From assembly GCA_905234665.1 (NCBI GenBank), contig CAJOIV010000014.1, forward strand, positions 1-64,000: DNA of 64,000 nucleotides. Reading direction: 5' to 3'. Shown piece by piece: positions 552 through 38,397 of this stretch (its first letter is position 1; each line of letters opens with the position of its first letter). The notes beneath the pieces were generated by a model. That model saw nothing but the letters and a program-made list of their open reading frames with translations. It was not told the DNA's origin and did no database searches. Made by a program: the position numbers and the translations under genes. This DNA comes from an uncultured Bacteroidales bacterium. Its GTDB lineage: Bacteria > Bacteroidota > Bacteroidia > Bacteroidales > P3.

Positions 552-1993
552 ATATCTTCCTCGAGACCTATGGCTGCCAGATGAACTTCGCCGATAGCGA
601 GGTTGTCGCCAGCATCCTCGGGAACGCTGGCCATACCATAGTGTCCGACAGCGAGGCCGCCGACCTCATCCTCATCAACACCTGCGCCATCCGCGACAAC
701 GCCGAGCAGCGTATCCGCCACCGCCTGCAGGACCTCCGTGCCCTCCAGCGGCGCAATGCTCGTCTCCGCGTGGGCATCCTCGGCTGCATGGCCGAACGCC
801 TCCAGAGCCAGCTTATGGCCGAGGAAGACAACGTCAGCCTTGTCGTGGGCCCCGACGCCTACCGCCGCCTGCCCGAGCTCATCGCAAGGGTGGGGGAGAT
901 GACACACTCCTCAGTCAGCAAAGCTGACAGCTCCCCTAACTTAGGGGAGCAGCCGGGAATACAACCGGCTCCCGCCCACTCCTCCCCTAAGTTAGGGGAG
1001 GTGGCCCAACGGGCCGGAGGAGTGTGTAAAAACCCAGCCCTTGTTGACGTCGAACTCAGCACCACGGAGACCTACGACGACATCGAGCCCGTGCGCCTCG
1101 CCTCCAACGGCATCTCGGCCTATATCTCCATCATGCGCGGCTGCCAAAACTACTGCGCCTACTGCGTCGTGCCCTACACCCGGGGGCGCGAGCGCAGTCG
1201 CGACCCTGAGACCGTTCTCCGCGAAGCCCGCACCCTCTACAGCCAGGGCTACAAAGAGGTCACCCTCCTCGGCCAGAACGTCAACAGCTACCGCCACGCC
1301 GACGTCGGCTTCCCCCAGCTGATGGATGCCGTGGCGCAGATCGCTCCCGACCTCCGCGTGCGCTTTGCCACGTCGCACCCCAAGGATCTCTCCGACGACC
1401 TCCTCCGCGTCATGGCCGCGCACCCCAACATCTGCCGCTGCATACACCTCCCCGTCCAAAGTGGCTCCGACCGCATCCTCAAGCTCATGAACCGGCACTA
1501 CGACTCGGCATGGTACCTCGGCCGCATCGACGCCATCCGCCGTTTCCTGCCCGACTGCTCCATCACCACCGATGTCATCGTCGGCTTCTGCAGCGAGACT
1601 GAGGAGGAGTTCCAGGCCACCCTCGACCTCTTCCGGCAGGTGCGCTACGACTACGCCTATATGTTCAAATACTCCTTGCGTCCAGACACCTACGCCGCCC
1701 GCCACCTCGCCGACGACATCCCCGACGCCGTCAAGGGCCGTCGCCTCGAAGAACTCATCGCCCTCCAGGGGCAGATAGCCCTCGAGAACAACCGCCTCGA
1801 GGTGGGGCGCGACTACGAGGTCCTCGTCGAGGGCGCCTCGCACCGCAGTCCCGAACGACTCTTTGGCCGCAACAGCCAGAACAAGGTCATCGTCTTCGAC
1901 CGCCGCGACGCCCTCCCCGGCCAGTACCGCCGTGTCCGCGTCACCGACTGCACGGCAGCCACCCTCCTCGGCGACCTAATTCCTAATTCCTAA
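548..1993 (+). CDS. miaB: tRNA-2-methylthio-N6-dimethylallyladenosine synthase MiaB
   Basis: Radical SAM methylthiotransferase that modifies i6A37 of tRNA. The N-terminal MTTase domain carries its three cluster cysteines in ETYGCQMNFADSE, INTCAIRDNAE and ILGCMAERL. The radical-SAM CxxxCxxC motif is in MRGCQNYCAYCVVPYTRGRE. A TRAM domain closes the protein (VGRDYEVLVEG ... LFGRNSQNKVIV). The start ATG overlaps the upstream stop by 4 nt. It has 481 residues, longer than usual, because residues 119-160 come from an inserted palindromic element in the linker between the MTTase and radical-SAM domains. The last residues (LIPNS) and the stop codon come from a CCTAATT heptamer tract. All catalytic cysteines are intact, so it is probably active. 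Confidence 0.97.
   Translation: MNIFLETYGCQMNFADSEVVASILGNAGHTIVSDSEAADLILINTCAIRDNAEQRIRHRLQDLRALQRRNARLRVGILGCMAERLQSQLMAEEDNVSLVVGPDAYRRLPELIARVGEMTHSSVSKADSSPNLGEQPGIQPAPAHSSPKLGEVAQRAGGVCKNPALVDVELSTTETYDDIEPVRLASNGISAYISIMRGCQNYCAYCVVPYTRGRERSRDPETVLREARTLYSQGYKEVTLLGQNVNSYRHADVGFPQLMDAVAQIAPDLRVRFATSHPKDLSDDLLRVMAAHPNICRCIHLPVQSGSDRILKLMNRHYDSAWYLGRIDAIRRFLPDCSITTDVIVGFCSETEEEFQATLDLFRQVRYDYAYMFKYSLRPDTYAARHLADDIPDAVKGRRLEELIALQGQIALENNRLEVGRDYEVLVEGASHRSPERLFGRNSQNKVIVFDRRDALPGQYRRVRVTDCTAATLLGDLIPNS
902..1027 (+). repeat. Palindromic coding element, copy A (inside miaB)
   Basis: 126 nt (42 codons) bounded by ACACACTCCTC and GAGGAGTGTGT. Inside are stacked hairpins: GTCAGC-AAA-GCTGAC, CTCCCCTAAcTTAGGGGAG, AGCCGG...CCGGCT, CTCCCCTAAgTTAGGGGAG and GGCCC-AAC-GGGCC. 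It encodes HSSVSKADSSPNLGEQP ... HSSPKLGEVAQRAGGVC with no stop in the miaB frame. Confidence 0.9.
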
Positions 1994-2010
1994 TTTCTAA
2001 TTCCTAATTA
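1975..2010 (+). repeat. CCTAATT heptamer tract
   Basis: About five imperfect tandem units of CCTAATT/TCTAATT spanning the end of miaB and the gap to the PASTA gene. The miaB stop codon lies within the tract. A 7-nt unit carrying TAA places a stop in all three frames after three units. Confidence 0.8.
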
Positions 2011-2011
2011 A

Positions 2012-2902
2012 ATGAACCTCTTCCAACGCTTTCCGCTTCTCAAGCACATCCTCTATATGATTGGCGTCTCCGTCGTCATCCTCTTCCTGGTGTTCCTCTT
2101 CATCAAGATGTTCGCGCGCCAGGGCAAGGAATACGAGCTCCCCGACATGCGGGGCCAGGCCCTCGCAGCCCTCGAGGATGAGAATCCCCTCGACTTCCAC
2201 TTTGTCGTCATCGACTCTCTCTACAACCCTGACGTCGAGGGCGGAACCGTCCTCCAGCAGGATCCCAAACCCGGCACGATGGTCAAGTCGCGCCGCAAGA
2301 TTTACGTCACTCTGGCCTCCTACGCCCCGGCCGACGTCGTCCTCCCCGAACTGAGCAATATGTCCGTGCGCAGCGCGGTCTCGGCCCTCGAGGCTGCAGG
2401 CCTCGTCTGCGGGCGTTTGCGCTTTGTCGACAGCCCCTACCGCAACGTCATCCTCGACTGCTCCTGCAAAGGCAAGATGGTCTATGCCGGCGAGAAGATG
2501 TCGCAGGGTGCCGTGGTCGACCTCACTGTGGGTATCGGTGAGGGGGTCGCAGCCACACGCGTACCCTTCGTCATTGGGCAGGTCCCGGCCAAGGTGCGCA
2601 GGGGCATCCTCGCATCCTCCCTCAATGTGGGACGCGAGCATTTCGAGGGCGTCACCGACCGCGCCACAGCCGTCTGCTACCGCCTCGACCCCGACTATAC
2701 AGGCGTCACCCGCTATCCTCTCGGCACGGATGTAGAGATTTGGTACTGTGACGCTTCCGAGGCCGATGCCGAGCGCATCATCGCCACCTTCAAGGTCGAC
2801 TCCACCAAGATCATCCGCCCCGACGACGACGAGTTCTACATCTCCTCCTCCTACGACGATGACTATGACTACCCGAGCAATGACGACGACTGGGACTGGT
2901 AA
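2012..2902 (+). CDS. PASTA domain membrane protein
   Basis: 296 residues. A short cytoplasmic N-terminus is followed by one transmembrane helix (about residues 13-33, VSVVILFLVFLFI), then three PASTA-like modules (about 41-110, 111-178 and 180-247) with features such as PDMRG, VLQQDPKPG and VPFVIGQVP. The acidic tail (about 265-296) is rich in Asp and Tyr. PASTA modules in other proteins bind peptidoglycan stems or act as spacers. There is no kinase or transpeptidase domain. Bacteroidota commonly encode such a protein just upstream of rluD, which fits here. The ATG directly follows the heptamer tract. Confidence 0.85.
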   Translation: MNLFQRFPLLKHILYMIGVSVVILFLVFLFIKMFARQGKEYELPDMRGQALAALEDENPLDFHFVVIDSLYNPDVEGGTVLQQDPKPGTMVKSRRKIYVTLASYAPADVVLPELSNMSVRSAVSALEAAGLVCGRLRFVDSPYRNVILDCSCKGKMVYAGEKMSQGAVVDLTVGIGEGVAATRVPFVIGQVPAKVRRGILASSLNVGREHFEGVTDRATAVCYRLDPDYTGVTRYPLGTDVEIWYCDASEADAERIIATFKVDSTKIIRPDDDEFYISSSYDDDYDYPSNDDDWDW

Positions 2903-2924
2903 TTCTGGGACACACTCTGGTAGC

Positions 2925-4988
2925 ATGAAGACACACTCCTCAGTCAGCAAAGCTTCAGTTGACTCCACAAGGTCGTCGACCTTCGGTTCCCCTAACTTAG
3001 GGGAGCAGCCGGAGATACACTCTGCATCTGACGTTGTTTCTGACATTGCATCTGATGTTGCTTCTGACCGCGGCAGCCACTCCTCCCCTAAGTTAGGGGA
3101 GGTGGCCCGAAGGGCTGGAGGAGTGTGTCCAAAATCCGCGCCAGCCGGAGGAGTGTGTAAAACTGCGACTTTCCTGTTCCTCCTCATCCTCCTGTTCTCC
3201 TTCCCCGTCCATGCCCAGGAAGTGCTCCTGCCGGTGCGGCATGGGGCAGGGCAGGGACCCTGCAAGGCCGACACGGGGGCGCTCCTGCTGCCGTTCTTCG
3301 ACGACTTTGCCTCGCCTGCGGCCTCCGCGCCGCAGTGGGACTCCCGCGGCGTCTTCTTCAACGACGCCTATGCCCCCTGGCCCCCCACCGTGGGCATGGC
3401 CACCCTCGACGCCTTCGACGCCGAAGGAGTCCTCTATCCCACCGCCGTCGGCCAGCTCTTCTTTGGCGACACACTCTGCTCGCCGCCCCTGCGGCTTGAC
3501 TCGGTCTTTGAACCCTTCCCGCGGCCGCTTACCCTCGACGACTCCCTCTATCTCAGCTTCTTCTACCTCCCCGGAGGCGGCAGCGGCAACATGTGGGAAC
3601 GCATCGGCGACTGCCCCGGCCAAGACGACTCCCTCCTCCTCGAATTCTATGACCCCTCCAGCGACTCCTGGACCCTCGTCTGGGGCAGGGGAGGTGAGTC
3701 TGTCGACACCCTCATGGCCCACACCGGCACCGACTGGCAGTATGTCGCCATCCCCATCGACGACCCCCGCTACCTCTCGCCAGCCTTCCGTTTCCGCTTC
3801 CGCAACTACTGCTCCCTCGACGAGGCCCCCAAGCCCGGAATACTCTCCAATTCAGACCAGTGGAACCTCGACTACATCCTACTTGACAAGGGCCGCACCG
3901 CCGACGGACGTGCCTCGCGCGACGTGGCCTTCGTCCACCCCGCGCCCTCCCCGCTCAAGGAGTTCTACGCCATGCCCGCGCGCCAGTACACCCCCTCCGA
4001 CATGGCCGACAGCCTCCCTCTGGTCATCACCAACCTCTACTCCGAGGAGCTGGCCACCCACTACACCTATGCCATCCTCGACGACGGCGGCAGCGAGCTC
4101 TACAGCTACGACGGCGGCTATGAGAACGCCCCCGTCTTTTGGCCCGCAAGGCAGTATCAGAGTGCCCGCGCCCATGCCAGCCCGCCCGTGGGCTACGCCC
4201 TCCCCGCCACCGGCGAGGCGGCCTCCTACACCATCGTCCACACCATCCGTGAGGGTGTGAGCGGCGACCTCCACCCTGACAACGACACCCTTCGTTTTGC
4301 TCTCAGTCTCACCGACTTCTATGCCTACGACGACGGCACCCCCGAGAACGGCTACGGCCTCACCTCCACCGCCGCGCGGGTGCGTCTCGCCGTCCGTTTC
4401 CCCCTGCATGTCGAAGACACCCTCACCGCCGTCGACCTCTATTTCAACCGCACCTTCGACGACGAGAACGCCTCCAGCCGTTTCCGCCTCACCCTCTGGG
4501 ACGACGGCGGCGGCCACCCCGGCAACATCATCTACCAGGACGCCGACCTACGCCACCCCTCCTTCCAGGGGCTCAACCGCTACGTCCGCTACCCTCTTGA
4601 ACAGCCCGTCGTGGTCAGCGGCACCCTCTATGTGGGGCTTGAGCAGACCACCCGCGACTACCTCAACCTCGGCTTCGACCGCAACCGAGACGCCTCCTCC
4701 CGCACCTTCTATCTCACTGGCACAGAGTGGCAGACCTCCATCCTGCGGGGAGCCCTCATGCTGCGGCCCTGCTTTGGCCAGTCGGCACTGGTTTCTATCG
4801 CGCCCGTCGACACCCCCCAGGCGCGCGTCTGGCTTTCCGACGGGAAACTGTGCATCGACAACCCCGATCGCCTCCCTGTGGCCGTCTACGATGCCCTCGG
4901 CCGCCCGCTCGACCCCAACGCCCAACTACCCTGCGGACTCATCATCGTCAAAATCGGCCCCCGGCCCTTCAAGATAATCATCAGATAA
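2925..4988 (+). CDS. T9SS sorting-domain secreted protein with element-split signal peptide
   Basis: 687 residues. Translation appears to start ATGAAG, runs through about 76 codons of palindromic element, and only then reaches the hydrophobic signal sequence (KTATFLFLLILLFSF, then VHAQ). Removing 2931-3158 would restore MKKTATFLFLLILL, a normal signal peptide. The mature part is a large beta-rich ectodomain with no catalytic motif that I recognise. The C-terminus is a T9SS sorting domain (VAVYDALGRPL ... GLIIVKIGPRPFKIIIR). A GTG inside the element (3153) could act as an alternative start and give a signal peptide at the very N-terminus. The gene sits between the PASTA gene and rluD. Confidence 0.8.
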   Translation: MKTHSSVSKASVDSTRSSTFGSPNLGEQPEIHSASDVVSDIASDVASDRGSHSSPKLGEVARRAGGVCPKSAPAGGVCKTATFLFLLILLFSFPVHAQEVLLPVRHGAGQGPCKADTGALLLPFFDDFASPAASAPQWDSRGVFFNDAYAPWPPTVGMATLDAFDAEGVLYPTAVGQLFFGDTLCSPPLRLDSVFEPFPRPLTLDDSLYLSFFYLPGGGSGNMWERIGDCPGQDDSLLLEFYDPSSDSWTLVWGRGGESVDTLMAHTGTDWQYVAIPIDDPRYLSPAFRFRFRNYCSLDEAPKPGILSNSDQWNLDYILLDKGRTADGRASRDVAFVHPAPSPLKEFYAMPARQYTPSDMADSLPLVITNLYSEELATHYTYAILDDGGSELYSYDGGYENAPVFWPARQYQSARAHASPPVGYALPATGEAASYTIVHTIREGVSGDLHPDNDTLRFALSLTDFYAYDDGTPENGYGLTSTAARVRLAVRFPLHVEDTLTAVDLYFNRTFDDENASSRFRLTLWDDGGGHPGNIIYQDADLRHPSFQGLNRYVRYPLEQPVVVSGTLYVGLEQTTRDYLNLGFDRNRDASSRTFYLTGTEWQTSILRGALMLRPCFGQSALVSIAPVDTPQARVWLSDGKLCIDNPDRLPVAVYDALGRPLDPNAQLPCGLIIVKIGPRPFKIIIR
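2931..3158 (+). repeat. Palindromic coding element, copy B (long form plus partial 3' copy)
   Basis: The full element spans 2931-3128. A second 3' end fragment (CCAGCCGGAGGAGTGTGT) ends at 3158. Together they are 228 nt (76 codons), open in the gene's frame. The central spacer is expanded by degenerate GCATCTGA/TTTCTGAC-like repeats. It encodes HSSVSKAS ... SPNLGEQPEIH ... HSSPKLGEVARRAGGVC. Confidence 0.9.
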
Positions 4989-4989
4989 C

Positions 4990-5027
4990 TCCTAATTCCT
5001 AATTTCTCATTCCTAATTCCTAATTTC
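4990..5027 (+). repeat. CCTAATT/CTCATTC heptamer tract
   Basis: Tandem heptamers fill the whole gap between the T9SS gene and rluD. The tract contains no ATG, and the rluD frame stays open through it. Confidence 0.75.
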
Positions 5028-5036
5028 TTCCCTCCC

Positions 5037-6080: not shown

Positions 6081-6161
6081 TAACAAGTAGTTGAAAAACA
6101 TCTTGTTAACTTTTTGTTAGGATGTAACAAGGTACAAACCAGCATTTTGCACGGATTTTCT

Positions 6162-9600: not shown

Positions 9601-10562
9601 AGCAGTTCTCCTACACCGTCAGCACCAGCAACGGCACCAGCACTCCCTCCGACTGGTCCGCCACTACCACCATCCCCACCGTCTACCTCCCCGGCACCTT
9701 CACAGCCTATGCCGTCGCCCCCGACTGCCTCAAGTCGCTTGCCTCCGAGCCCTTCGCCTACAGCCCCAAACTGATGATCGGCGCCTCGACAGCCGTCAAC
9801 GCCCAGCCCACATCGTATGACATCATCGTGTATGTGGGCGTCCCGAGCACCGCTGCCAATGACTACAACGAGTGGGCATCGGATGCCACCACCACCTTCC
9901 CCGCAACCAATCAATTCGAAGTCCGTTACACCCTCGACGGCTCGCCCGTGACGGCCTCTTCAACCCTTTGCGAGTCCCACGAGGCCAACGACGCCTCGGG
10001 TCACACCTACTACACCATCCCCATGGTCGACGGCTACGCCAACATCCATGCCAAGGCCTTCCCCACCCAAGGCAGCCCCTATGCGGCTTCCGACGAGTTC
10101 GTCTATAAGTTCCTTGCCAACGAATACATCATCTACGACACCATCCATACCTCCAGCACAGACTACCACACCTACACCCTCGTGCCCAACGGGGGAGAGC
10201 AGGCCACCGACAACGACATCCAGAACCTCAAGGACAGACTCGACCCCCGTTTTGTCTGGATTGGCAGCTCCACAGCTGGCCAGGAGACCGGCTTCCGCAA
10301 CGAGAGGACCCGTAAATACCTCACCCTGCAGCGCATCACCGACGTGCAGGGCGAGACCCTGACCCTCGTCGCCGGCGACACCCGCGTCGACGGACAGGGT
10401 GCCAGCGGCGGCGACGCCACCACCTACAGCTCCTCCACCTGGCAGTGGAGCGGCGATGAAGACGCCAACGAGGCCAACCGCCACCGCCTCTACACCACCA
10501 TCGACCAGACCACCTACTACCTCGCCCTCCAACTACCGCGGCGGCGCCGACTTTGCAGCTGA
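6627..10562 (+). CDS. Giant T9SS surface protein, N-terminal segment (before frameshift)
   Basis: The chosen start is ATG 6627, which gives MKKTLRLSRLKRVALTLLLG and a signal peptide ending in VQAQ. ATG 6603 is an in-frame alternative. About 1,300 residues of Thr/Asn/Tyr-rich secreted sequence follow. They include a module like the chitobiase/beta-hexosaminidase C-terminal domain (FEVRYTLDGSPVTAS, about residues 1095-1160). The frame then runs into a stop at 10560-10562 with an unrelated Arg-rich end (PRRRRLCS). The coherent sequence continues without interruption in the +1 frame from about 10528, so this is the first part of a single gene rather than a complete protein. No catalytic domain is recognised. 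Confidence 0.85.
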   Translation: MKKTLRLSRLKRVALTLLLGLSAGTVQAQTINVRHNYNDETMTVTVSNPPSGNYVVVYTYSNTTETPGVPTADAPANYDTEDYNGVGTIAFVGTATGSIPVGPTGDIAVGGDWTKVTVAIFAEGATPESTAVCTTTVAIDRYATPVRSLSADGYSIIIDGTGNPDNTRLTYDSPSAPDIVSTVDYNTTTHNVELAVGGQGLVPFTVYSMRTIGPAAYPSLPLKCSTMAYRIPALIDFHPYHSGTSVRYATGTVVSGSMSAPVASIYINYNNYETDRVTLKDPNPYDNTSYNVVLPSGTALHDATNTLGIPYPNFKMVAGPVDLTAESRLITSDVMVVDTLYSNYYLFSYSEGATTHYLSFDPVSHSLANTTTFDYNCLWQRNPEDNHLYHLQGGHRYRLGIDDNGTLAVHYNIEEYDVWYRTGSQIYTMWNDLRRNIAYRNGQWILTAEGTDAELNVAHQLKHEEVDACQITAFNRIETGDIKVPATANVGEYAPKWLALDQERTWTVQVSPRLYLDVYSLPPHEIFQFEDNLGNTQRMWYYNNTAYQSYVDIPHRLNQPNSPAANDSRYTYNWSVVDAADQPSTVVTATPAANNPNQVTLTCSSAINSLQALTLKVSISYEDNTVNANHEPVAGSAAAPAVLPLFAEHKVDITDLTSVPNAAESGAQAFRTSGSYLFRCMPDPTITSDEPYYDITAAPSESNSHRAILTAVPDPERLLEVLYDASNQVITIKDPALSVEHNTNASYYLQPAPGQTSDWRYIPETPALCFSNDGDNSTWSFKVTAYQNGSNAAGYFTFRPAATTNDQLSLEPQMATRNQGNGLRFVNSVTSRTVGQSDIYSNAIGTFYASRWQLVDPTLIEPVISMTPEGQVTITDVAGHLRHVYGVLHYQYKPAGEESWSNTFNFTLIENGNNYVVVKDNNDQTITFAEGDQVKAWKTAGSDHPYLAPSAEVLFTVRRTPAPTLSVSTVEGHAHDIVITPGTTESIPAEGQQFSYTVSTSNGTSTPSDWSATTTIPTVYLPGTFTAYAVAPDCLKSLASEPFAYSPKLMIGASTAVNAQPTSYDIIVYVGVPSTAANDYNEWASDATTTFPATNQFEVRYTLDGSPVTASSTLCESHEANDASGHTYYTIPMVDGYANIHAKAFPTQGSPYAASDEFVYKFLANEYIIYDTIHTSSTDYHTYTLVPNGGEQATDNDIQNLKDRLDPRFVWIGSSTAGQETGFRNERTRKYLTLQRITDVQGETLTLVAGDTRVDGQGASGGDATTYSSSTWQWSGDEDANEANRHRLYTTIDQTTYYLALQLPRRRRLCS

Positions 10563-13500
10563 GTCGGCAACGGTGCAGATAGAGCAGCCCATCAACTCCA
10601 ACCAGTGGGTCGACATCGCCGACGCCGGCAGCCACGGCTGGGCCTCTCTCGCCGTTGGCGACAGCCTCCATGTGCGTGCCGTCTTCTCGGGCGACAGCAT
10701 CGTCTACACGGGCAACAACGTCATCTACATCATCCGCCCGGGACATGACAACCGTGTCGACCCAAGCGACTTCGACCACTATATCCCCTGGCAGTTCTGG
10801 CTCGAGTTCAGCGAGAACGACTACTCCCAGACCCCCCGTTGGGAACAGCGCATCGTCGAGAACCACTTCGACAGCCTCAGCACCGTGCGCTGGTACCTGG
10901 GTCACTACAACGGCAACGGCACCACGGTGACATACGATGGTACCCCCTTCGTCACCTATGTGGGCCACGGCACTGTGTATCACCGTGCCGACACGGCAGT
11001 CGCCTCGCAGGGCAATCTCGGCAGCCTCTTCACGTGGAAACACCACAGGGGAGCCAACTACCTCACCATCGTCAACAGCTCCAATTCCGCGGCCAACATG
11101 CCCGACTTCAGCAAAGTCATCCGCGTCGTGGCCTTGCAGAACAGTGTCTACTCGGCCGGTATCGCCGCGGCCGCCGTCTCCTTCGACAACAGGATGCACC
11201 TCTTCGCCGAGAAGGTCGACCGCCGTAACAACGACAATGGAGTAGGCGAGTGGCCTGAGTTCACCGGTTCCAAGCGTTGGCGTTTCCTCAGCAAGGACTA
11301 TGACGAGAGCTCGCAACAGTACCACTACCTCTCCTCCGACCACCACAATGCCACCCGCGTCGACGCCACCCGCTATCCCTACTTGGCCAACCAGCCCCGC
11401 ATGTCCACCAACCCCGAGTATACCCACTATGCTTTGTGGATAATGAACAGCGAGAACGTCGGCAGCAACACCAACCCCCTCTACCGCGTCAGAATCAGCC
11501 CCGCCATCGCCCAGCAGAAGAGTCTCGTGCATCTGCCCGGCAACGGCCTCGACGCCGCGGGTACCGACCTCGGCGACTTCCTCTACAAGAGCGGCCTCGA
11601 GCCTGAACCGCCCCAGGGCGTCAGCTCCGAAGACTATGCCAACGGCCTCTTCCTCCACGACCCCCTCAGCGAGGAAGAACACGAATACTCTTCCAGCCAC
11701 GACTACCATGAACTGTTAAAACACAGCAACGACTTCCAATACTGCGCCATACGCCAGTTCGAGGAGACCGACGCCAGCGGCAACGCCACCGCACAGTACG
11801 TCACCCTCTCGCCCTTCTACCACTACGCCGTGGACGGTGTCACACGCAATATCGCCGACTACCTCAGCCTCTCCAACGGCGACGGCGAAGACCGCTGGGT
11901 CTACAGCCACTTCGGCAAGGTGCCGCAAACCGGTAACCCCACAGATGCCCAGTGCCGCGATGCCGCCATCTACGACTTCTACCACAGCCGCTGGCACATG
12001 GACCAGGCACTCCTCACACCTCCCTATGTCGAGATGAACCCCTCCGGCGAGGTGACCCTCTGGCACCGTTTGGAGCAGGTCAACAACGACGACATCGGCA
12101 CCGAACACCATATCAACAACCTGGGCGACCTCCTCAAATACTTCTATTGCATCAACGACGCCACGGTGCCCGTGGAATCGCTTGTCTATCCCACATTCCT
12201 CGACGGTGAGACACCCATCACCGACCAGACTCCCGTGGCGAATATGGTCACCAGCCCGGGCACCCTCCTCTACGACCCGGCCCATAAGCCCGTCCTGACC
12301 GCAGGACAGCGCATCACCGTCGTGGCCGTCCTCACCCAGGCAACGTCGACACCCAGTTTCGCCTACGTCCCCCATATCTCGCGCCCCCACACCTTCGAGG
12401 CTGTGAAGAGTGCAACCCCCGAATGGGGCGACGCCACTGCCATGACCGATGTCCAGTTTGCCGCCGCCGCCGGCGACACGCTGCTCATCGGCCAGAATGT
12501 CAACGATGCCAACTACAGCATCTATGCCGACCCCGCCAGCGCGGTCTACGGTATCTCCACGTCGACCACCTCGCCGCAGCACATCCGCAACGAGGGTGGG
12601 AGCGACTCGTATGTCCTCCGTGCCTTCCAGCACAACAAGCTGGAGTCCGACCCCCTCTATTTCTACCAGTCCGAAAAACTGCGCCTTGTGACCACCGTCG
12701 GCGCTGTCGACGCCACCACCGGCGCGGCCACCATCACCGTCAACGTGTCCACCGTCAACGACCGTACGCCCCTGACCGACTACTACGACCTCTACTATAC
12801 CACGGCAACCCCCGGCTCGACGGGATACGACGACTCCTGGCAACTTGTCTCCGGCACTACGAACAGTTTCACCTTCACAGTTTCTGCCCTTGTCAATAAT
12901 CAGGCCTCCGCCCTCCCGCTCCGCATCCAGGCCCGCGCCATCGACGGCAGCAACTTCTACATCAACTCCGAAATCGACCTGCATTTCCTCATCCACCCGA
13001 ACTATGCAGGTAGCTTCAGCGGCGACGGCGACGGCACCCAGGCCAACCCCTACAAGATTGCCACCCCCATCGACCTCTTTACCGCCGCGGTTATTATCAA
13101 TGGCGGCACAGGCACCTCGGCCTACTTCCGTGTGGACGCCGACATTGACATGCAAAACGACAATACGCTGTCCAGCATCGGCAACAGTACCAACAACCCG
13201 TTTGCTGGCCACTGGGACGGCGGCTACCACACCATCTCCGGCCTCACCAAGCCCCTCTTCGACATCGTCGACGGCGGTCATATATATAATGTAGTCGTCG
13301 ACCAGTCGCAGATATCCGGCACCGGCAACTACATCGGCGGCCTCATCAACCAGGCCCAAGGCGAGGCGCGCATCTATAACTGCGGCGTCCGCTCCACCGG
13401 AGACTCCCCCACCACAGTCACCGGCAGCGGCATCATCGGCGGCCTCGTGGGTAAGCTCGCCGGCACGGCCCGCGTGGTCAACTGCTACAACTTCGCCGCT

Positions 13501-16500
13501 GTCACATCCAATGGCTCCACCGCCGCCGGTATCGTGGGTGACGCCCAGGCCGCAGCTAAGTCCACCCGCTCCGACCAGAAAGGCATAGTCTTCGCCTGCG
13601 TCAACTACGCCAAGGTCGATGCCGGCGACAACAATGTCTACCCCGTCGTCGGCGGCTCACCCACCGACATTCACAATAACCTCAACGCCTACAACTACTT
13701 CAACGCCGACGCTGGATACAATGTCGCAAAACTCCAGTACGACGGCTCCTACGGTAACGAACTCTGGGCGCTCAACCGCGTCGAAATGGTCCGCTACATC
13801 CTCAACTCCAACAACCGCCGCGCCGGCTGGTGGGTCAATGCCCCCAACGGCAACAATGCCTCCGACCAAACAACCACTGCCACCTACTTCACCGATGTGA
13901 TCAGTGCCGACGACAATAACACCATCGGCCAGTGGGTCCTCGATACCACTATAGCCCCTTACCCCATCCTCAAACCCCGCTACGACAACAACCACAACCC
14001 CATCCAGTACCCATCCATCATCAACCCCGACTACGAGGCCAGTTGGCGCAACACCGCCAACGCCTACGAGGGTCGCCGCCTCTCCGACTGGGGCACCAAC
14101 GGCTACCTCGCCGTCACTGTCACCAAAGGCGACAAAGGCAACGCCATCACCACCAACCCCACCATGCCCATGCAAATCTCCATCACCGACATGGACACCC
14201 TCGCCTATGACTTCAACTACGCCAAAATCCAGCTCCCCTACTTCCAGGACATCTTCGGCACCGGTTCCAACATTCAAACAGATGGTGGCAATGACTATAT
14301 CGTAACCGGCTGGAAAATAACCTCCATCACCAAGGATGGCCAATCCTACACATCCACCTACGTCACCCAAGACTCCATCGATGACTTCGCCTACAACTAT
14401 GCCAACCGCAACTCCATTATCAAAGACCTCTACCACACCTTCACCAAATCCACCGACGCCTATGGCAACACCCTCGGGGTGCAACAATCCCCTGCCCGCG
14501 TCTTCGCTCAAGGCGGCTACTTCAATGTCCCCAATGGCGTCACAGCCATTACCATTGAACCCTATTGGGGTCGCGCTTTCTACCTCAAGGAATCATACAA
14601 CGACGTCTACTACTATGACCAAGGTGGCACGGGAAGCGATCAAATAGCTACAAGCGCTCTGTACAAAGCAGACAACAACATCTATGGCGCGGCAAAGATA
14701 GACCAGTCCACCAACCAAACCATCTACACCAGTCTCAGCACCCTTTTTAATGCCTTGGAAGACAACAAAACAGTCTACGACCAAGCCATCGTTCTTCTCA
14801 CCGATTTTCACCTCAGTGATAATACTAAAAGTTCTCAAACACTGAGGGTCGCGAAATCTTACACTGTCACTTCCATTGATGTGGACAACAACCACGAACC
14901 AGACCACGTCTTCTATCACTACTTTGCTGATCGTTGCCGTTTCAGCCCCATTCGTTTCGACAACATCGTCTATGCCGACCTGAGCATGGCAAGCATCGCC
15001 AACGGCGGTAGCAAAATGGCACGACATTTGGGTCTTACTCGACCCACTGGTCACTACGAAATCACCGAAACAGCCATGGCCCACTTCTACCAATTTGAGT
15101 ACAATGGGCCGCATGATTCACCTTACAAGGTGAAGTCACCTTTTATTCTTAATGGCGGTTATTTCGATCACATCACTTCAACCCGAGGCTTCTCGCCGAT
15201 TGACCAAACCCTATACATCCATATGGGTGGTCATGTCTACCACAAGCAGTTCTCCCCCGCCAACGACCCCAATGGTGAAGATAAAAGATACACCTATCGT
15301 TGCCCTGTCATCCTCACGGGCGGCGAATACAAGGAACTCTATCTCTCGGGCTGCCTCGAGTCTAAGGCCAACAACTGCACCTACGATGCTATTCTCTACG
15401 CCTCTGGCGCTCGCATCGGCACCTACGCCTCAGGCGCCTACGAGAAAATCAACGCCAACGTAATCATCAAGGCCGACCACATCATCGCCCACGACTTCTA
15501 CGCAGGCTCTATCTCACCAAATCCCGATTATTCCCTCAAAGGCGCTATCACCACCACCCTCGATTATTCCATCGTCCACAATGTCTTCTGTGGTGCCAAC
15601 AAGTTCGGCGACATGGTATCCGGTAAGGATGTCATCACCAATGCCACAGGCACCACCTTCAATATCATCTACGGCGCAGGCTACGGAGGCAACGCAAAAA
15701 CTATTTTTAGGGAACAGAATATACAGTATACCGTAAACGACCTGTATAGTAATTTCAAAAATTACTACCAAAAGGGTACTCTGAAGTCAGGCTATGGTAT
15801 CAACACGGACTATGCAATGGACCTCTTCCCCTGGTCCAACAGCAACCAGCACTGCGGCCGCTTCTACAACTACTATTCCAGTCTCTCCCTCGCCTCTGCC
15901 AATAACGTCACCACCACCCTCACCGATTGCACTGTCCTCGGCAACTACTACGGCGGCGGAAACCTTGGCCAGGTGAAAAACACTGCTAAAAGCACCCTCA
16001 CCAACTGCACCATCTACGGAGACGTCTTTGCAGGCGGCAACGCCGCTACCGCACCCCCAGCAGTCGTCTACGAAAAACCCTCCACAGACAAGTACCCCCA
16101 GTTCGTCGGCGGCGTCTACATCAACCTCGACAAGAACAAAAACGCCACCTCCGCAAACTACGTCTGGACCAACACCCGTCCCAGCGGCGTGAGCAACACC
16201 ACCTACCTCTGGACCGATGCCACCACAGGCGTCAACTACATCTACGCAGACCGCGCAACTGCTGACCTCAGCACAATTGGTGTCTGCAAGAAAACCGACC
16301 TGACCCTCTCGGGCAACACTGTCGTGTATGGCTCTGTCTATGGCGGCGGCAACGAAGCCGAGACGGGCGACCCCGCCGTGGCCAACAATGATAATCTGAA
16401 GCCCAACCACTACACCACGGTGGTGGTGAAGGACAACGTACACGTGGCGGGTGACGTGGTGGCTGCCGGCAACCAAGGTAAGCTGACCGGTTCCACCTCC

Positions 16501-22500: not shown

Positions 22501-25500
22501 GAGTCCACCCACGCCATCACCGAGTTCCACTACGGCAACAACGGCACCGACGAAACCGACTACCGCGCATGGAAGTTCGGCAGGGGCACTCGTATGCGTC
22601 AGGTCACCGTCGTGGCCCACACCGACACCACGCAACTGCCCAACAACTATGGCCTTTTGGTCGATACTATAGGAGGTGGCGCAGGCACGGTCCATCTCGG
22701 ACTTGTGGTGGCTCCCCTCGAGTTGCCGCCAGCCGACATGGGCAACTACTACGTCATCGACGGGGGCATCACCGTCGACCAGGAGAACCGCGAGCTGATG
22801 CTGACGCAGTCCTCCTTCATCCCCACCAGTGATGCTGCCCACATGTCTACAGGAGATTGGATTTCGTCCGAGAATGGCGCTACAGTCGCAACTTCAGCTA
22901 TCAAGCAAATCGTTCGTGAAATCACAAGTGATCCTTCCCACACCTTCGGCCTCACCATCGGCAAGGGTGCCAACTTCAGCTCCAGCACGCCTTCCGGCGG
23001 TTCAACTTCCATTGCCAGCAATGCAGAATGCCGTACGGCCATCTACAGTACGCCATTCTTCGAGAGCACGCATGGCTATGCCACCACCACCGTTTCTGGC
23101 AGCGAAAATGTGGTGCCCACCCTCAATGTATACCTCACCTACGACCCCAGATTCTCGACTACGTTGATGGGCGATATCACGTTCACCCTGCGAGAATTCA
23201 ACAGCAGTCATGTCGAGGTGGGTACCGTGGATGTGACCATCTCCATCTCGACCATCCTGACCGAGTTCAAGGACCAGACCTACGAGCTCGTGGCCATGAA
23301 GAACGGTTTCGACAACCACGTCTACTCTCGCAAACTGATTCTGCCGGCCTCTATGCGCCGCCGCAGCCTCTACCTCTCCGACATCGAGTGGGAGCCCCTC
23401 TCCGTTCAGACTAGTCTCGACACCAACGGTACAACAGAAAACTTCGGCTTCACCACTGTCGCGAGCGCTACCTCCAACCGCGCCAACCTTGGTGAGAACA
23501 CCTTTGCCCTCTCTGTCCGTCCCACCGAGGACCTCTCCAACACCCTGACCACCACCCTCGGCTGGTACCGCATGGATGTGGACGACCTCGATGTCCGTAC
23601 CATGTCTGCCGTTTCAGGCGACAGCCGTCAGCCCTACAGCGTTGAGCCTGCTGCTCAGACCACCGGACGCAAAATCCACTATGATGCCAACGGCGGCAAA
23701 GGCCTTCAGATAGGTATCCTCGACGGCCGCAGCTCGGCAGGCTTCGACATGTCGCTCTACTACAACGGCGACCAAGAGTACAGCACCAACGGCATCCGTG
23801 GCCGCGTGAAGCTCTACTTCAAGTACTACAACCAGAACGTCACCGGCAGCAATGCCCACGACGAGGGCAACGCCGAACAATTCACCCTCACCCTCTATGT
23901 GCGCACCCGTATCGGTGCCGACACCATCTACCTCTGCTCGGAGCCTTCCATCACCCGCGACGGCATCACCCTGTATCCTCACGGCGAGGCACCCAACACT
24001 GGAGGATACACAGACCACAAGCACTACCCCAGTGGTTGGCCGCAGGAAGACAACTATGAGGGCAAGAACCCCCGCCAGTATGTCCGTTCGTTCGAGCGCG
24101 CGCTGAACCCCAATATCTATAAGGCGGGCGACGTCATCTACATTATCGGCCCGGTCGACATCGACGGCCGCAAGAACCTCAACATCCACGGAGCGGAATA
24201 CAACTTCGTCCCCGTGATGCGCTACCCGGGGTCGCACTTCATGTTCCCCGGCGATACCTGCGCCTACCGCGGCCCGCTGGTGCGCCTGTCGCAGGAGGGC
24301 AAATTCTCGACCGAGAATGTCTTCTTCGATGGCCGCATGGTCTCCAGCCGCAAGAGTTTCTCCACGACACGACCCGATATCCTGTATGATTCGGTGACTC
24401 GCAACGGCACTACCTACTATGCCTATGGCGAAACCGCGACACAGCCAGGTTCGGGTTGGAAACAGGACACCCTTGCCGCGACAGCACCCATCTTCGAGGT
24501 GAAAGACGCCGGTGTCCTCACCCTCGGCAACGAGACCGTGGTGCGCAACAGCTGGAACAAGAATGCCGGCACCAACGAACTTCTCGGTAGTGTGGCATTG
24601 ATTCACCAGCCTAACTCCACCTACACCCTGCCTGAAGACGCTACGACGTATCCTGCCCATCCGCGCATGGTGGTCACCAAGAATGTGGATATCTATAATA
24701 ACGTGGTCGGCTCTGCCGGCGGCAATATCCCCACAGGTGCCATCCACCTCAAGAAAGGTGTCTTCCAGTTGGGTGTCACCACCAAAGGCTCGGCCAAGCA
24801 GAGGGCCTCGGAAATCCACATCGAGGACAACTACGAGGCCAACGGCATCTTCTGGACCACCAACGTCACCACTGGCAATCCCCAGGCGGTCGCCATTCCC
24901 ACCGAGGGCACCAACGCCTTTGCCAAGGCCAATGTCTACCTCAACCACGCCAAGCACAACAACAGCGAGGTGGAGGACGACATCAGCATGGTGGTCTCCT
25001 TCGCCGACGAGCAGAACGCCGGCAGTCGCATAGGTATCAGCAAGGAGTTCCCGGGCCTCAACCCCCTCGTGCGCGACACCATCCGCATTGCCCAGGTCAC
25101 CAACAGCTATCCCACTTATGCCGCCAACGCCAAGGCCAACAACATCTTCTTTAACGATAAACGTTTCGCCTCCTCCAAAGATGCCAACGTCTTCTACCAC
25201 TCCTCCATTGCCCCCACGACGATCTTCTTCCAGCGCTGCGCCACCTTCCAGAAGCAGCTCTATGAGGATGCCAGCCACAACAGGCAGGTGCTCTACACCT
25301 ATGTCGACGCACAAGGCGAAGGAGCCGAAGATGACGAGACTGTCACCATCCTGCAGCAGCCCGTCCTGAGCTACCACATGAACAGCCTCTCGGCCTGTCC
25401 CGACGGCACCGACACCGTGGTCTACAGCGTCCACGGCGGCTTCTACCCCTACACCTACAGCTGGACCAGCGGCACCACCGACCTCGGCACGAGCACCACG

Positions 25501-31570: not shown

Positions 31571-31596
31571 TTGTAATTTGTTTTAGTTTTCATCTT

Positions 31597-33067: not shown

Positions 33068-33103
33068 GAAGTAAGAACCAAGAGGTAAAAGCCAAGAAGT
33101 AAT

Positions 33104-33856: not shown

Positions 33857-33860
33857 GAAT

Positions 33861-35309: not shown

Positions 35310-35395
35310 TGTGTTAATGTGTCAATGTGTAAATGTTTGAGTGGCTGCCGCCCCACTTACACATTCACACATTCACCCATTCAATCATTCACTTA
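35307..35395. repeat. Converging heptamer tracts between convergent genes
   Basis: AATGTGT-type heptamers (about four units) face ACATTCA-type heptamers (about four units) across GTGGCTGCCGCCCCAC. The two arms are roughly reverse complementary, so the gap can fold into a long hairpin and may act as a bidirectional terminator. Confidence 0.6.
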
Positions 35396-36699
35396 TAGTA
35401 TAGCCTGCTGAGCGACTCCTCGGCAAGGTATTGCCTTGCTACCATCTGGATGTCGTCGGCGGTGACTGCGAGGATGTCGCGGCTCATGTCGTCGAGGGTG
35501 TCGACCCGCTCGAAGTTGAGGAATGCCTTGCCGATGCTCTGCATCTCGTTGAGGGCAAGATCGTTGTTGATGGCCATCTGCCCGATGAGCTGCTGCTGGG
35601 CCGCACGCAGCTGCTGCGGGGAGAGTGGGACATCGCGCAGGCGGCGCAATTCGGCAAGGATGAGTTCGGTGCTGCGGTCGGCGGCGCCGGAGTCCACGCC
35701 CGCATAGATGTAGAAGAGGCCCGCGTCGGTGAAGGGGACATACTGCGACTCAATGGTGTAGCAGAAGCCCTGTTTTTCGCGCACAGCGACGTTGAGACGG
35801 GAGTTCAGGGCAGGACCCCCGACAATGTTGTTGAGGAGCGTAAAGGCGGTCTTCTGCGTGTCGAAAAGGGTAGGGGCGGAGCCGCCGATGAGGAGGTGCA
35901 CTTGATGGGTGTGCTTGTTCACCGTGGCGTTGAAAGGGGTGAATTGGCTGTCGCGGGACGACACACTCCTCCGCCCTTCGGGCACCTCCCCTAACTTAGG
36001 GGAGGAGTGGGCGGGAGCCGTTTGTATTTTTGGCTGCTCCCCTAAGTTAGGGGAGCTGTCAGCCCTGCTGACTGAGGAGTGTGCCAAGAAGTGTTTCTCG
36101 CAGAGGTGGACGAGTCGGGAAAAGTCGATATCGCCCACAGCGCTGACGACCATGCGGTCGGGGGTGTAGTGGTCGCGCATGAAGCGGCGCAGCATGTCGG
36201 GCGAGAAGTGCTTGACATTGCGCTTGGTGCCAAGGATGTTGTGGGCGAGGGGATGGGCGCCGAAGATGCGCTCCTCGAAGTCGTCGTAGATGAGGTCGGA
36301 AGGGGTGTCGCGGTAGAGGTTAATCTCCTCGATGACGACATCTTTCTCTTTCTCTATTTCGTGTTCCGGGAAGGTGGAATGGAAGAGTATGTCGGCGAAG
36401 AGCTCGAGGGCGCGCTCCAGATGCTGAGAGAGGACAGAGGCATAGACGCAGGTCTCCTCCTTGGAGGTGAAGGCGTCAAGTTCGCCGCCCACGCCGTCGA
36501 TACGGTTTCGGATATGGTAGGAACGGCGGTGTTCTGTGCCCTTGAAGACGGAGTGCTCGATAAAGTGGGCAATGCCTTCCTCTGCCCCGCGCTCGTCGCG
36601 GGAGCCGACGTTGATGTATACGCCTACGTGGGTGACCACGGAGTGGTTGGGGCTGCAGATGATGCGGAGACCGTTGGGGAGGGTATGCGTGAGGTACAT
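35389..36699 (-). CDS. M16 family zinc metallopeptidase
   Basis: 436 residues. The inverted zinc motif HxxEH is HFIEH near residues 45-49, with the distal Glu in EKDVVIEEINLYRD. The second half carries the R/Y-type region GGPALNSRLNVAVREKQGFCY. There is no signal peptide, so it is probably cytoplasmic, like Bacteroides processing-peptidase homologues. Residues of about 206-246 (HSSVSRADSSPNLGEQP ... HSSPKLGEVPEGRRSVSS) are a palindromic element placed in the linker between the two M16 halves. The ORF stays open. It is the last gene of the minus-strand run that starts at 42315. Confidence 0.92.
   Translation of the reverse strand: MYLTHTLPNGLRIICSPNHSVVTHVGVYINVGSRDERGAEEGIAHFIEHSVFKGTEHRRSYHIRNRIDGVGGELDAFTSKEETCVYASVLSQHLERALELFADILFHSTFPEHEIEKEKDVVIEEINLYRDTPSDLIYDDFEERIFGAHPLAHNILGTKRNVKHFSPDMLRRFMRDHYTPDRMVVSAVGDIDFSRLVHLCEKHFLAHSSVSRADSSPNLGEQPKIQTAPAHSSPKLGEVPEGRRSVSSRDSQFTPFNATVNKHTHQVHLLIGGSAPTLFDTQKTAFTLLNNIVGGPALNSRLNVAVREKQGFCYTIESQYVPFTDAGLFYIYAGVDSGAADRSTELILAELRRLRDVPLSPQQLRAAQQQLIGQMAINNDLALNEMQSIGKAFLNFERVDTLDDMSRDILAVTADDIQMVARQYLAEESLSRLYYK
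35961..36083 (-). repeat. Palindromic coding element, copy D (inside the M16 peptidase)
   Basis: 123 nt (41 codons), sense-oriented in the host gene, no stop in frame. Both CCCCTAA/TTAGGGG stems and the GTCAGC-AGG-GCTGAC hairpin are present. It has the short spacer form, like copy A. Confidence 0.9.
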
Positions 36700-36741
36700 T
36701 GTTCAGTTGAGAGTTGAAAGTTGAAATTGTCTGTCGCAGTC

Positions 36742-36776
36742 TTAATTCCTCATGCCTAATTCCTCATTCCTAATTA
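36742..36776 (-). repeat. CCTAATT/CCTCATT heptamer tract
   Basis: About five imperfect units. On the minus strand the tract encodes the last residues and the stop codon of the ligase-like gene. Confidence 0.75.
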
Positions 36777-38397
36777 AAAGAGAGAAGGGGAGGGTGACGA
36801 AGGTGATGCCCGCGAGGGTGGCGAGGGTGTTGTCAGCCATGAAGGAGACGAGGACTATGACGATGTGGGCGAGGAGAATTGAGAATTGAGAATTGAGAAT
36901 TGAGAATTGCCGCAGGCAGCGCACGAAGAAGAAGGCGATGATGAGAAGTCCCACCCATCCGAAAGCCACGAGGAAGGTGAGGTATTGGTTGTGGAGGTGG
37001 AAGTTGGAACCCGCCAGAGGCGATTGGGTCTTGCGAAGCTCATCCTGAAGGGCTTGCTGGATGCCGCCGGTGCCGTAGCCGAGGAGGGGCGCGCGCCGGT
37101 GCATCGTCCAGCCCGCGCGCCACAGCTCCAGCCGCTGGAGGGTGGAGAAGTTACTGACGCTGCGGAAACAACGGTAGTTCTCGTACTCGTAGAAGAGGAC
37201 GTAGAAGAGCTTGCGGGGGTCGCGCTGGAGGTATACGGGGTTGGCGACGCCGTGCTCGATGGCGGCCACGTCGTCGGGCGTGAGGTGCGTCATGCCGAGG
37301 CTGTCCTTGGTGGCGCCGATGGCATTGAGGTAGCGCAGCAGGGCGGGGTAGACGGTATAGCCCACGGGGGTGAGGGAGTCGAAGGGATAGTCGCTGAGCT
37401 TGCGCCACTGCTCGCGCATCTCCTGCTCGCAGACATATTGGTGGACGTAGTTGCCGTTCTCGATGAGGCCGTCCTGCCGGTGCAGGTAGGGGTTGCCATT
37501 GGCGGTGAGGGGCGGACGCACGGCGTCGGTGGAGGGGGTGCGGAGGGTGTAGTACTCGTGGTGGTAGTAGAGCGTTGCGCCGCCAATGGCGAGCCATGCC
37601 GCCACTCCTGCCGAGAGGGCGAGCCAGCGCACCTTCGGCGCGAGCCGACGCCAGCAGGCGAGGGGCATCACCAGCGCCAGTACCAGAAGGATGATGATGG
37701 AAGTGTAGGCATGGATGAGGAAGATGAAGAAGAGGAACCAGAGGACGAGACACACTCCTCCGGTCCTTCGGACCACCTCCCCTAACTTAGGGGAGGAGTG
37801 GCTACCGCGGTTAGATGCAGAGTCAGAAACAAGGTGTATCTCAGGCTGCTCCCCTAAGTTAGGGGAGCAGTCAGCTTTGCTGACTGAGGAGTGTGTCAAG
37901 TCTGAAACCAGCAGCAGTACTATGCAGAAGCAGAGATGGAGGCCGAAGCGGATGTGCGAGATATGGGGGACAATGTCGCGGTAGGGGAGGTCCGGAATGG
38001 TGAGGTAGCGCACGAGTCCCACGATGGTCATGGCGAAGACCCCCGCGACATAGCATGCCGCCACGCAGAGTCCCTCGCGCCGGTCGAGTGGCTTCGAGGT
38101 GAGCACCACCAACGGGATGGCCAGGAAGGGGAGTCCTATCTGGAGGACATAGAGCGTGTGGGAGAGGTCGCGGGTGCCGATGCTCCAGATGAGTGTGACC
38201 CCGGCGACGGCCAAGATGGCATGCAGGGGGCGGTTGTGGCGGAAGTCTGAGAACTTCTCGCGCCAGTTCCATGAGAGCACCCAGTTGGCGAAGAGGAAGA
38301 CCCACGCCATGTTGGAGAAGAACACCGAGGTGGTCATGCTCGCCGCCAGGCCGCAGAGCAGGAAGATGTAGATGTATCTATGAATCCTACTTCTCAC
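36742..38397 (-). CDS. O-antigen ligase/polymerase-like membrane protein
   Basis: 551 residues with about ten transmembrane helices. The large loop and following helices resemble Wzy_C/WaaL proteins, with SNFHLHNQYLTFLVAFGWVG as the family signature. Such enzymes polymerise O-antigen or transfer it to lipid A core in the inner membrane. The proposed start is GTG 38397, which overlaps the end of the S41 gene. Residues of about 168-216 are a palindromic element lying between hydrophobic segments (CIVLLLVSDL and LVLWFLFFIFLIHAY). A second insertion, QFSILNSQFSIL, comes from the GAGAATT tract, and the C-terminus (RNEELGMRN and the stop) comes from a CCTAATT tract. All keep the frame open. Confidence 0.85.
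   Translation of the reverse strand: MRSRIHRYIYIFLLCGLAASMTTSVFFSNMAWVFLFANWVLSWNWREKFSDFRHNRPLHAILAVAGVTLIWSIGTRDLSHTLYVLQIGLPFLAIPLVVLTSKPLDRREGLCVAACYVAGVFAMTIVGLVRYLTIPDLPYRDIVPHISHIRFGLHLCFCIVLLLVSDLTHSSVSKADCSPNLGEQPEIHLVSDSASNRGSHSSPKLGEVVRRTGGVCLVLWFLFFIFLIHAYTSIIILLVLALVMPLACWRRLAPKVRWLALSAGVAAWLAIGGATLYYHHEYYTLRTPSTDAVRPPLTANGNPYLHRQDGLIENGNYVHQYVCEQEMREQWRKLSDYPFDSLTPVGYTVYPALLRYLNAIGATKDSLGMTHLTPDDVAAIEHGVANPVYLQRDPRKLFYVLFYEYENYRCFRSVSNFSTLQRLELWRAGWTMHRRAPLLGYGTGGIQQALQDELRKTQSPLAGSNFHLHNQYLTFLVAFGWVGLLIIAFFFVRCLRQFSILNSQFSILLAHIVIVLVSFMADNTLATLAGITFVTLPFSLLIRNEELGMRN
36874..36908 (-). repeat. GAGAATT heptamer, five perfect units
   Basis: Exactly 35 nt. On the coding strand it reads AATTCTC and encodes FSILNSQFSIL inside the ligase-like membrane protein. 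One unit more or less would shift the frame. Confidence 0.9.
37750..37896 (-). repeat. Palindromic coding element, copy E (inside the ligase-like gene)
   Basis: 147 nt (49 codons), sense-oriented, open in the host frame. The perfect terminal arms ACACACTCCTC / GAGGAGTGTGT are retained. It has a longer central spacer related to copy B (CATCTAACCGCGG-type). Confidence 0.9.

Follow-up and report, generated by a model that had tools for sequence, protein, structure and literature searches.

A family of short palindromic elements recurs in a 64,000-nucleotide stretch of DNA from an uncultured Bacteroidales bacterium (contig CAJOIV010000014.1, positions 1 to 64,000; hereafter the window), and several of its copies lie inside genes, in the reading frame of the host. 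We conclude that these elements are almost certainly mobile palindromes that are tolerated in frame. We observed directly how they are built and how many copies there are, their position in frame within genes, their absence in the orthologues aligned and their polymorphism between strains, together with differing units at one fixed site and a linkage of the palindromes to DUF559 nuclease genes that is specific to the nuclease clade. The new observation is that palindromes of the same TTAGGGG type flank DUF559 genes in relatives and in metagenomes. Based on this linkage, its two-sidedness, its clade specificity and the in-frame fusion of nuclease and element peptides, we consider DUF559 the probable mobiliser of the elements. 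More tentatively, DUF559 and its cognate palindromes may constitute a distinct mobile element, a stop-free unit that homes in frame without splicing and seeds palindromes lacking the nuclease.

The initial annotation described four copies in the window, and all are present in the sequence, far above the shuffled expectation for stem and arm: the stem pattern CCCCTAANTTAGGGG has 9 matches with up to 2 mismatches versus 0.14 expected from shuffling, and the arm ACACACTCCTC has 12 with up to 1 mismatch versus 1.44. The copy lengths of 126, 228, 123 and 147 nt and the encoded peptides (THSSVSKADSSPNLGEQP...HSSPKLGEV) are also as it described. Its statement that the copies lie inside four unrelated genes holds for miaB, the M16 peptidase gene and the Wzy_C gene, whereas the copy at 2931-3158 is N-terminal rather than in the middle of a gene. 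It had missed that the full element is an inverted dimer, that single units occur on their own, and that DUF559 is associated with the palindromes. The copies and their hosts are as follows.

902..1027, plus strand: full palindromic element (inverted dimer), 126 nt, in frame in miaB, in the interval between UPF0004 and radical-SAM
931..949, plus strand: 5′ unit stem CTCCCCTAACTTAGGGGAG of the miaB copy
982..1000, plus strand: 3′ unit stem CTCCCCTAAGTTAGGGGAG of the miaB copy, 51 nt past the first stem and so in phase
548..1993, plus strand: host gene miaB, 481 aa including the insert
2931..3158, plus strand: full element with a second 3′ arm, 228 nt, N-terminal, just past ATG-AAG
2925..4988, plus strand: open reading frame hosting the N-terminal copy, a signal-peptide protein without a Pfam match, which the initial annotation called T9SS
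35961..36083, minus strand: full element, 123 nt, in frame in the M16 peptidase gene
35389..36699, minus strand: host gene, M16 peptidase, 436 aa including the insert
37750..37896, minus strand: full element with a longer linker, 147 nt, in frame in the Wzy_C gene
36742..38397, minus strand: host gene, Wzy_C (O-antigen ligase-like) protein, 551 aa
45921..45981 (about), plus strand: solo 3′ unit (half element), intergenic, a fifth copy absent from the initial annotation

In MiaB, the insert occupies residues 118-160, between the UPF0004 (3-101) and Radical_SAM (193-361) domains; in the M16 peptidase, the Peptidase_M16_C match (165-371) covers the insert (205-246). The 3′ arm GGAGGAGTGTGT, found at 3118-3158 of the window and elsewhere, holds a Shine-Dalgarno-like GGAGG and GTG codons, and in the N-terminal copy an in-frame GTG of the arm immediately precedes the signal peptide and could be used as an alternative start codon. 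At gathering scores, Rfam gave no match in the window to known structured RNA families.

The window belongs to a genome (G000) of 2.67 Mb in 65 contigs, estimated as 90.5% complete with 5.6% contamination. This genome holds 138 stems CTCCCCTAANTTAGGGGAG at up to 2 mismatches, and a control search with the reversed pattern gave none. Copies were scored in the stretches around the listed matches, which cover 135 of the 138 stems; the 105 copies scored comprise 30 dimers, 51 single 3′ units and 24 single 5′ units, with the decayed dimer C8:43426-43545 scored as two single units and with one stem and six 5′ arms left unassigned. Each unit of about 60 nt consists of a perfect palindromic stem (CTCCCCTAA-N-TTAGGGGAG) and a variable hairpin between CACTCCTC and GAGGAGTG arms. 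Because solo 5′ units are, in the plan of stem, variable hairpin and arms, the reverse complement of solo 3′ units, the full element is an inverted dimer. It measures 120-230 bp, has conserved terminal inverted repeats of about 11 bp, and ends in ACACAC/GTGTGT on the outside in G000. As single-stranded DNA, three window dimers gave folding z scores of -10.5, -8.9 and -8.2 (-9.7, -8.5 and -8.7 as RNA), and in the predicted fold, a four-armed cross, the two TTAGGGG stems pair with each other and are accompanied by an outer stem and two hairpins at the sides; a solo half folds more weakly (z of -3.1 as DNA and -2.2 as RNA). The variable hairpin occurs in 69 distinct sequences, 61 of which can still pair perfectly over at least 4 bp, compared to 15% of shuffles. 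Some 3′ units (L053, L055, L056, L059 and L063) carry longer internal hairpins, such as ...AAGTTAGGAAGAGAAATGCCAGTGGCATTTCGGGCAGAG... or ...GTGGTCTCCAGTGGAGACCAC..., suggesting that hairpin modules are exchangeable and that the family is a mosaic of them.

One third of the scored copies (35 of 105) are internal to genes and in frame. Twenty-nine of these (9 dimers and 15 + 5 single units) were called by a codon-usage model trained on the element stretches, which required that the sequence on either side be coding and in a single frame without stops, and six were added by inspection (HemW-like, epimerase-like, C46:7026, C4:20064, imidazolonepropionase-like and ComEA-like). From their motifs, we take further hosts to be AroE, SufS, MnmE, a YgiQ-like protein, an FtsK-like protein, an MBOAT protein and a ketoacyl-synthase protein; the MnmE copy sits between the NKVD and SAK motifs. 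Two T9SS-type C-terminal domains (contig C39) hold an in-frame copy and a frameshift further downstream. Searched alone against 5.8 billion proteins, the MiaB insert recovered 29 proteins (E ≤ 0.01, 55 candidates, lengths of about 265-841 aa), including five marked as the window's own; in the 25 that were inspected by sequence, some copies are terminal rather than internal. Their Pfam families include pyridoxal kinase, NAD kinase, QueG, HemW, M16, sulfatase, MBOAT, substrate-binding protein and shikimate dehydrogenase, among others.

These segments are lacking in the orthologues with which their hosts were aligned. Among the matches listed, the two halves of miaB are separate matches at most 21 nt apart in 21 of 24 same-genus genomes (G014 and G016 match the second half only, and G010 neither half), and the 126-nt insert is therefore absent from miaB in those 21. 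When 5 to 10 orthologues were aligned per protein, the insert stood out as additional sequence in MiaB, M16, AroE and SufS; the case for MnmE is weaker, as its loop varies in length. The residues encoded by the element, for which an origin as conserved domains had been considered, are thus lacking in the aligned orthologues, and the suggestion that these are selfish, translated palindromes like those of Rickettsia identified the right class, given clean inserts relative to orthologues and the same peptide in many Pfam families. Pfam listed no splicing (intein) domain in the four window hosts or in nine DUF559-related proteins. Copies in genes would survive in the open phase, in loops or linkers where this can be judged, and would be translated as inserts of about 20-60 residues. 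We infer that the inserts are translated and that the host proteins work.

The uniform frame of the window copies was initially taken as unlikely to arise by chance. It is instead largely forced, as stop codons in the stem close two of the three frames of either strand and leave one phase per strand open; the phase at the element ends varies, and the stem sets it. Genome-wide, genic copies are non-random in frame, and no internal out-of-frame copy was seen in an otherwise intact gene of G000. Sense orientation, also claimed for the window copies, holds for every one of the 13 in-frame dimers internal to genes, counting the decayed ComEA-like copy, but the 20 genic single units that the codon model called are mixed (14 sense, 6 antisense), and we reckon the chance that all four window copies are sense at about 1/16. 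The orientation bias is non-random across the genome and extends to intergenic copies, hence it gives no evidence for tolerance of the peptide. Among 69 non-genic rows, 48 are co-oriented with and 13 opposite to the co-directional genes on either side, convergent genes flank 7 and divergent genes none, and 1 has no called neighbour; without nine terminal or decayed rows the count is 39 co-oriented versus 13 (p = 4e-4), and for dimers 8 versus 1. The sense bias is thus not explained by translation alone. A replication effect was considered and set aside, since element orientation tracks GC skew just as genes do and replication and transcription are inseparable here; impressions of orientation from upstream and downstream coding scores were discarded as biased by construction. 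In the 21 dimers not called in frame, which include some terminal fusions and three hand-added internal cases, the forward phase is open in 13 versus 4.7 in shuffles (standard deviation [SD] 1.6, maximum 9, 500 shuffles) and the reverse phase in 8 versus 3.5 (SD 1.4, maximum 8), suggesting that part of the openness goes with the palindrome.

Evidence for mobility comes from a contig (JAGCVD010000036.1, assigned to RGIG10151; L307-L312) that is about 97% identical to parts of G000. Gene-length matches elsewhere in RGIG10151 are only 69-76% identical to G000, and this contig is probably misbinned or a transferred region. Four of six element sites are common to both, one is occupied only in G000 and one only in the sister contig; the latter copy lies in frame in a pyridoxal-kinase-type gene, where G000 has another loop. 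Three metagenome proteins have copies of differing length at the pyridoxal-kinase site, and a strain variant of MiaB (471 of 481 aligned residues identical) has a longer 3′ unit at the identical site. Different units at one fixed site indicate that units are exchanged or overwritten in place. At L100 2440-2720, a terminator-like hairpin has a duplicated arm (CGCGGGCCCCTTGTGTT repeats) within which a dimer lies, and the sister contig has a plain hairpin there (L311 13820-13940). Same-genus orthologues were too diverged to provide empty sites at the DNA level.

The distribution of the elements is patchy. In a set of 41 genomes (G000, 24 of the same genus and 16 others), stems with up to 1 mismatch were found in 6, and the five besides G000 have few; within the genus, 5 of 24 genomes have few stems and 19 have none. 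A longer core was matched in 2 of 247 genomes of the order, G000 included. In the GTDB collection, the core occurs in at least 95 stretches, mostly from Bacteroidales-type metagenome-assembled genomes, many of them from ruminant gut; one core-bearing genome is titled Roseburia. A collection of viral contigs held no exact stem match, and carriage of the elements by phages was set aside on this ground. We also considered a recurrent neighbouring gene as mobiliser, and rejected it: among the open reading frames of 80 foreign and 87 own element loci, the families common to at least three other genomes are ABC-ATPases and one lipoprotein-like family, with no transposase.

The candidate enzyme came from the proteins with element peptides. 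Three of the 29 (P0001, P0008 and P0028) are DUF559 (PF04480) proteins, scoring 88.5, 90.3 and 103.2 bits against a cut-off of 20.6, and in each the element peptides are fused in frame both before and after the nuclease domain. A structure relative is present in the PDB (3hrl_A, E = 4.3e-16). PF04480 matches occur in 9 of 25 genomes of the genus, where the match in G008 is not DUF559 proper, and in 13 of 24 element-bearing genomes, 11 of these with TTAGGGG-type stems near a copy. We counted perfect palindromes with arms of at least 8 nt within 320 bp of DUF559. In a set of 28 loci, which excludes L324, L326 and L327 as not DUF559 proper and L341 as a duplicate, 15 have palindromes on both sides, 8 on one side and 5 on neither, with a mean of 2.25 palindromes compared to 0.25 per 640 bp further out. 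DUF559 was matched in 169 of 296 sampled genomes of the phylum; among 30 further loci picked from the best of these 169, 19 have palindromes on both sides, 6 on one side and 5 on neither, and the means are 2.39 versus 0.23 further out (18 short open reading frames) and 1.58 versus 0.22 (12 long ones). Palindrome density beside DUF559 is thus 7-10 times that further out. In a tree of 31 DUF559 domains, the 17 with TTAGGGG-type palindromes, a class that includes L344 (imperfect stems) and three members classed by peptide, form one side of one branch (support 94/90; 0 of 500 shuffles as low), and the other 14 have GGAGAGGGG-type palindromes (9) or none or others (5).

In other Bacteroidota, DUF559 itself lies in frame inside host genes (L350, L353, L358, L369, L348 and L333, encoding LeuRS, MetH, HsdM-like, type ISP and epimerase proteins). 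Of 13 long open reading frames selected, 8 were read and 6 run against Pfam, with the following results (palindromes are perfect ones counted within 320 bp):

MetH: B12-binding_2 377-451, DUF559 502-607, B12-binding 637-726; palindromes on both sides
LeuRS (L350): synthetase domain 14-152, DUF559 326-429, editing domain 461-622; no perfect palindrome within 320 bp
LeuRS (L353): synthetase domain 13-145, DUF559 323-425, editing domain 447-606; palindromes on neither side
HsdM-like: N6_Mtase truncated at 396, DUF559 419-525; palindromes on one side
Type ISP: Type_ISP_C in two stretches, the better after DUF559 501-608; palindromes on both sides
Epimerase: domain 16-260, DUF559 300-407, C-terminal part after it (by eye); palindromes on one side

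Many other DUF559 matches in the phylum lie in open frames of 1000-1480 aa. A literature search, mostly outside subscription papers, found nothing among the papers listed on DUF559 with palindromes or mobility. In the available part of a Caulobacter study, a DUF559 member is described as a predicted mismatch-repair endonuclease, and this protein, VsrA, is needed for the SOS response of a methylase mutant, for which the authors suggest double-strand breaks (PMC12907096); this requirement fits a nuclease able to break the chromosome.

The interpretation that we consider most likely is that the elements are non-autonomous mobile DNA, in which two inverted units of about 60 nt make a full element that would insert without a detectable target-site duplication and mostly co-oriented with transcription. 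The mobiliser would be the cognate DUF559 nuclease (Vsr-like, of the PD-(D/E)XK type), which in relatives lies between palindromes of this type and which elsewhere in the phylum, often beside palindromes of another type, is itself found in frame in host genes. On this model, DUF559 would cleave the palindromic junction or the target, or a site close to one of them, after which an element would be installed or overwritten as the break is repaired from another copy. We infer both the movement of elements by DUF559 and these steps of cutting and copying.

Several observations weigh against this interpretation. The chief counterpoint is that G000 itself has no DUF559 match (in an assembly that is 90% complete), so that the present spread in this genome needs an enzyme that has been lost, is unassembled or is a different one. 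Eleven of the 24 element-bearing genomes likewise lack a DUF559 match, and two more lack TTAGGGG palindromes at their copies; 10 of 58 DUF559 loci, including the two LeuRS insertions L350 and L353, have no perfect palindrome within 320 bp. The split between 17 and 14 domains in the tree concerns palindrome classes that we assigned before the tree was made, on a branch below the tool's star threshold, and the loci include near-copies (L316/L331 and L328/L346). DUF559 could also be a passenger at the side of palindromes, or exploit them for its own control. The 30 dimers show no consistent signal of target-site duplication, and a clean empty site was not among the sites compared, so that either gain or loss may underlie the differences between strains. 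The pyridoxal-kinase difference also alters the loop, the other strain difference could be a deletion between flanking repeats, and the regular in-phase spacing of the two stems may reflect descent rather than selection.

The likeliest alternative is that an unknown replication or repair process spreads the palindromes, and that DUF559 genes are passengers that accumulate among them as homing genes tolerating such sites. The highest copy number among the genus genomes compared is in G000, which has no DUF559 match, and CGTC repeats, including Rickettsia types, reportedly lack a dedicated transposase in the part of the source available (PMC3733652), both of which this explanation accommodates. 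It seems rather unlikely to us, as it accounts poorly for palindrome sequence that tracks the nuclease clade, for palindromes that often lie on both sides of DUF559, and for nucleases fused in frame to element peptides. A different enzyme is proposed if the elements are REPINs (paired, inverted repetitive extragenic palindromes [REPs]) moved by a RAYT, a Y1 HUH transposase (TnpA_REP), with DUF559 only a frequent neighbour. Inverted dimers, singlets and the missing target-site duplication would be expected, and Y1_Tnp is matched twice in G000, with one of the matches some 600 bp away from a half element. However, the one of these that was inspected, the RAYT-like gene on contig C8 (L078 2780-3990), is flanked by another repeat with a GTAG-type hairpin (TAGTAGCGTGCCTCCGGCACGC), which makes it a second palindrome system in G000 and led us to reject it as the mobiliser. 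The outer ends of our elements lack GTAG, an element-bearing genome of the genus (G009) has no Y1_Tnp match, and no relative of the C8 gene (E ≤ 1e-5) was found in the foreign element loci examined; we regard movement by a RAYT as improbable.

We think it somewhat less probable still that the elements are ordinary miniature inverted-repeat transposable elements (MITEs) with ACACACTCCTC terminal inverted repeats, mobilised by a DDE transposase from an unseen autonomous copy. Their conserved termini, length and high copy number are typical enough, but single units stand alone in both orientations, target-site duplication gave no signal, and no transposase was among the recurrent families of the element loci surveyed above. 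Least credible, to the point that we give it almost no weight, is the view that the inserts are conserved, functional protein modules under selection at the protein level. The excess of open forward frames in dimers not called in frame agrees with such selection, but the hosts are unrelated, aligned orthologues lack the segment, inserts of differing length and sequence occupy one site, most copies lie outside genes, and variation preserves pairing in the DNA.

Two further features were observed near the elements or in the window. A 7-bp tandem repeat, (AATTCTC)n, is present at window positions 36877, 39974 and 45986 and in L092, L087, L271 and L249, with 55 matches of at least 2.5 copies in the 559 kb examined. 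All three of its forward frames are open and its reverse strand is closed; it is found beside the palindromes but also in frame in genes (peptide NSQFSILNSQFSIL), and occupies the same M16 loop in two relatives. A single open reading frame, 5854 codons long, spans positions 10399-27963 of the window.

How protein-coding palindromes spread into genes that are still read through, and what moves them, has long been puzzling. If DUF559 and its palindromes do form one mobile unit, this would supply the missing enzyme and could extend to other families of intragenic palindromes. A nuclease that tracks palindromes by clade, adjoins them and itself lies in genes is a concrete candidate that is cheap to test. 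It would also suggest where new protein loops, and odd repeated peptides in predicted proteins, may come from, and would give DUF559 a role.

In form, the elements resemble REPINs and, also in functional class, Rickettsia palindromic elements (RPEs), palindromes of about 150 bp, many of which lie in frame in unrelated genes as translational fusions, according to the parts of the reports available (PMC10969869, PMC3733652); the 35 internal cases in G000 are of this kind. The two differ in phylum, in the inverted dimer with a fixed TTAGGGG stem, and in the nuclease linked to the palindromes in relatives; the RPE descriptions, in those same parts, name no enzyme (PMC10969869, PMC3733652). Intragenic palindromes outside Rickettsia have been described, and CGTC-type repeats, treated as one large repeat class with apparently no dedicated transposase, are reported from Bacteroidetes among other phyla in the portion of that source available (PMC3733652). 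GTAG and CGTC REPs and REPINs also form inverted doublets and singlets, fold into hairpins, and lie mostly between unidirectional or convergent genes with some intragenic copies, as far as that portion goes (PMC3733652). In the G000 stretches, however, GTAG is not among the 12 commonest 4-mers after the arm, and CGTC follows it in 1 of 149 listed cases (AGTC 54, CGCC 52, CGGC 22, CGGT 10, CGTC 1); this CGTC comparison concerns G000 only, and some foreign units read CTCCTCCGTC on the reverse strand. Subclass 2.6 RAYTs of Bacteroidetes are noted, in the part of the report available, for atypical flanking structures (PMC6006769).

MITEs as a class share the terminal inverted repeats and differ in the target-site duplication that was not found in the 30 dimers. 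QMITEs, in the available part of their description, are likewise small non-autonomous repeats able to extend or join open reading frames, and differ in the direct repeats at their insertions, which were not detected here (PMC5896051). P0001, P0008, P0028 and the in-frame insertions match the Vsr/DUF559 family (PF04480), which Pfam lists as of unknown function. A parallel for a nuclease inside a gene is the ShiLan element, a homing endonuclease insertion without splicing: no stop interrupts it, its host is a coding gene, and it holds a nuclease but neither an intein nor an intron that is recognised, as described in the part of the source available (PMC11855218). There the nuclease is of the HNH type and out of frame in a phage methylase, whereas the DUF559 nucleases described here are in frame, usually at the side of palindromes, and in several hosts.

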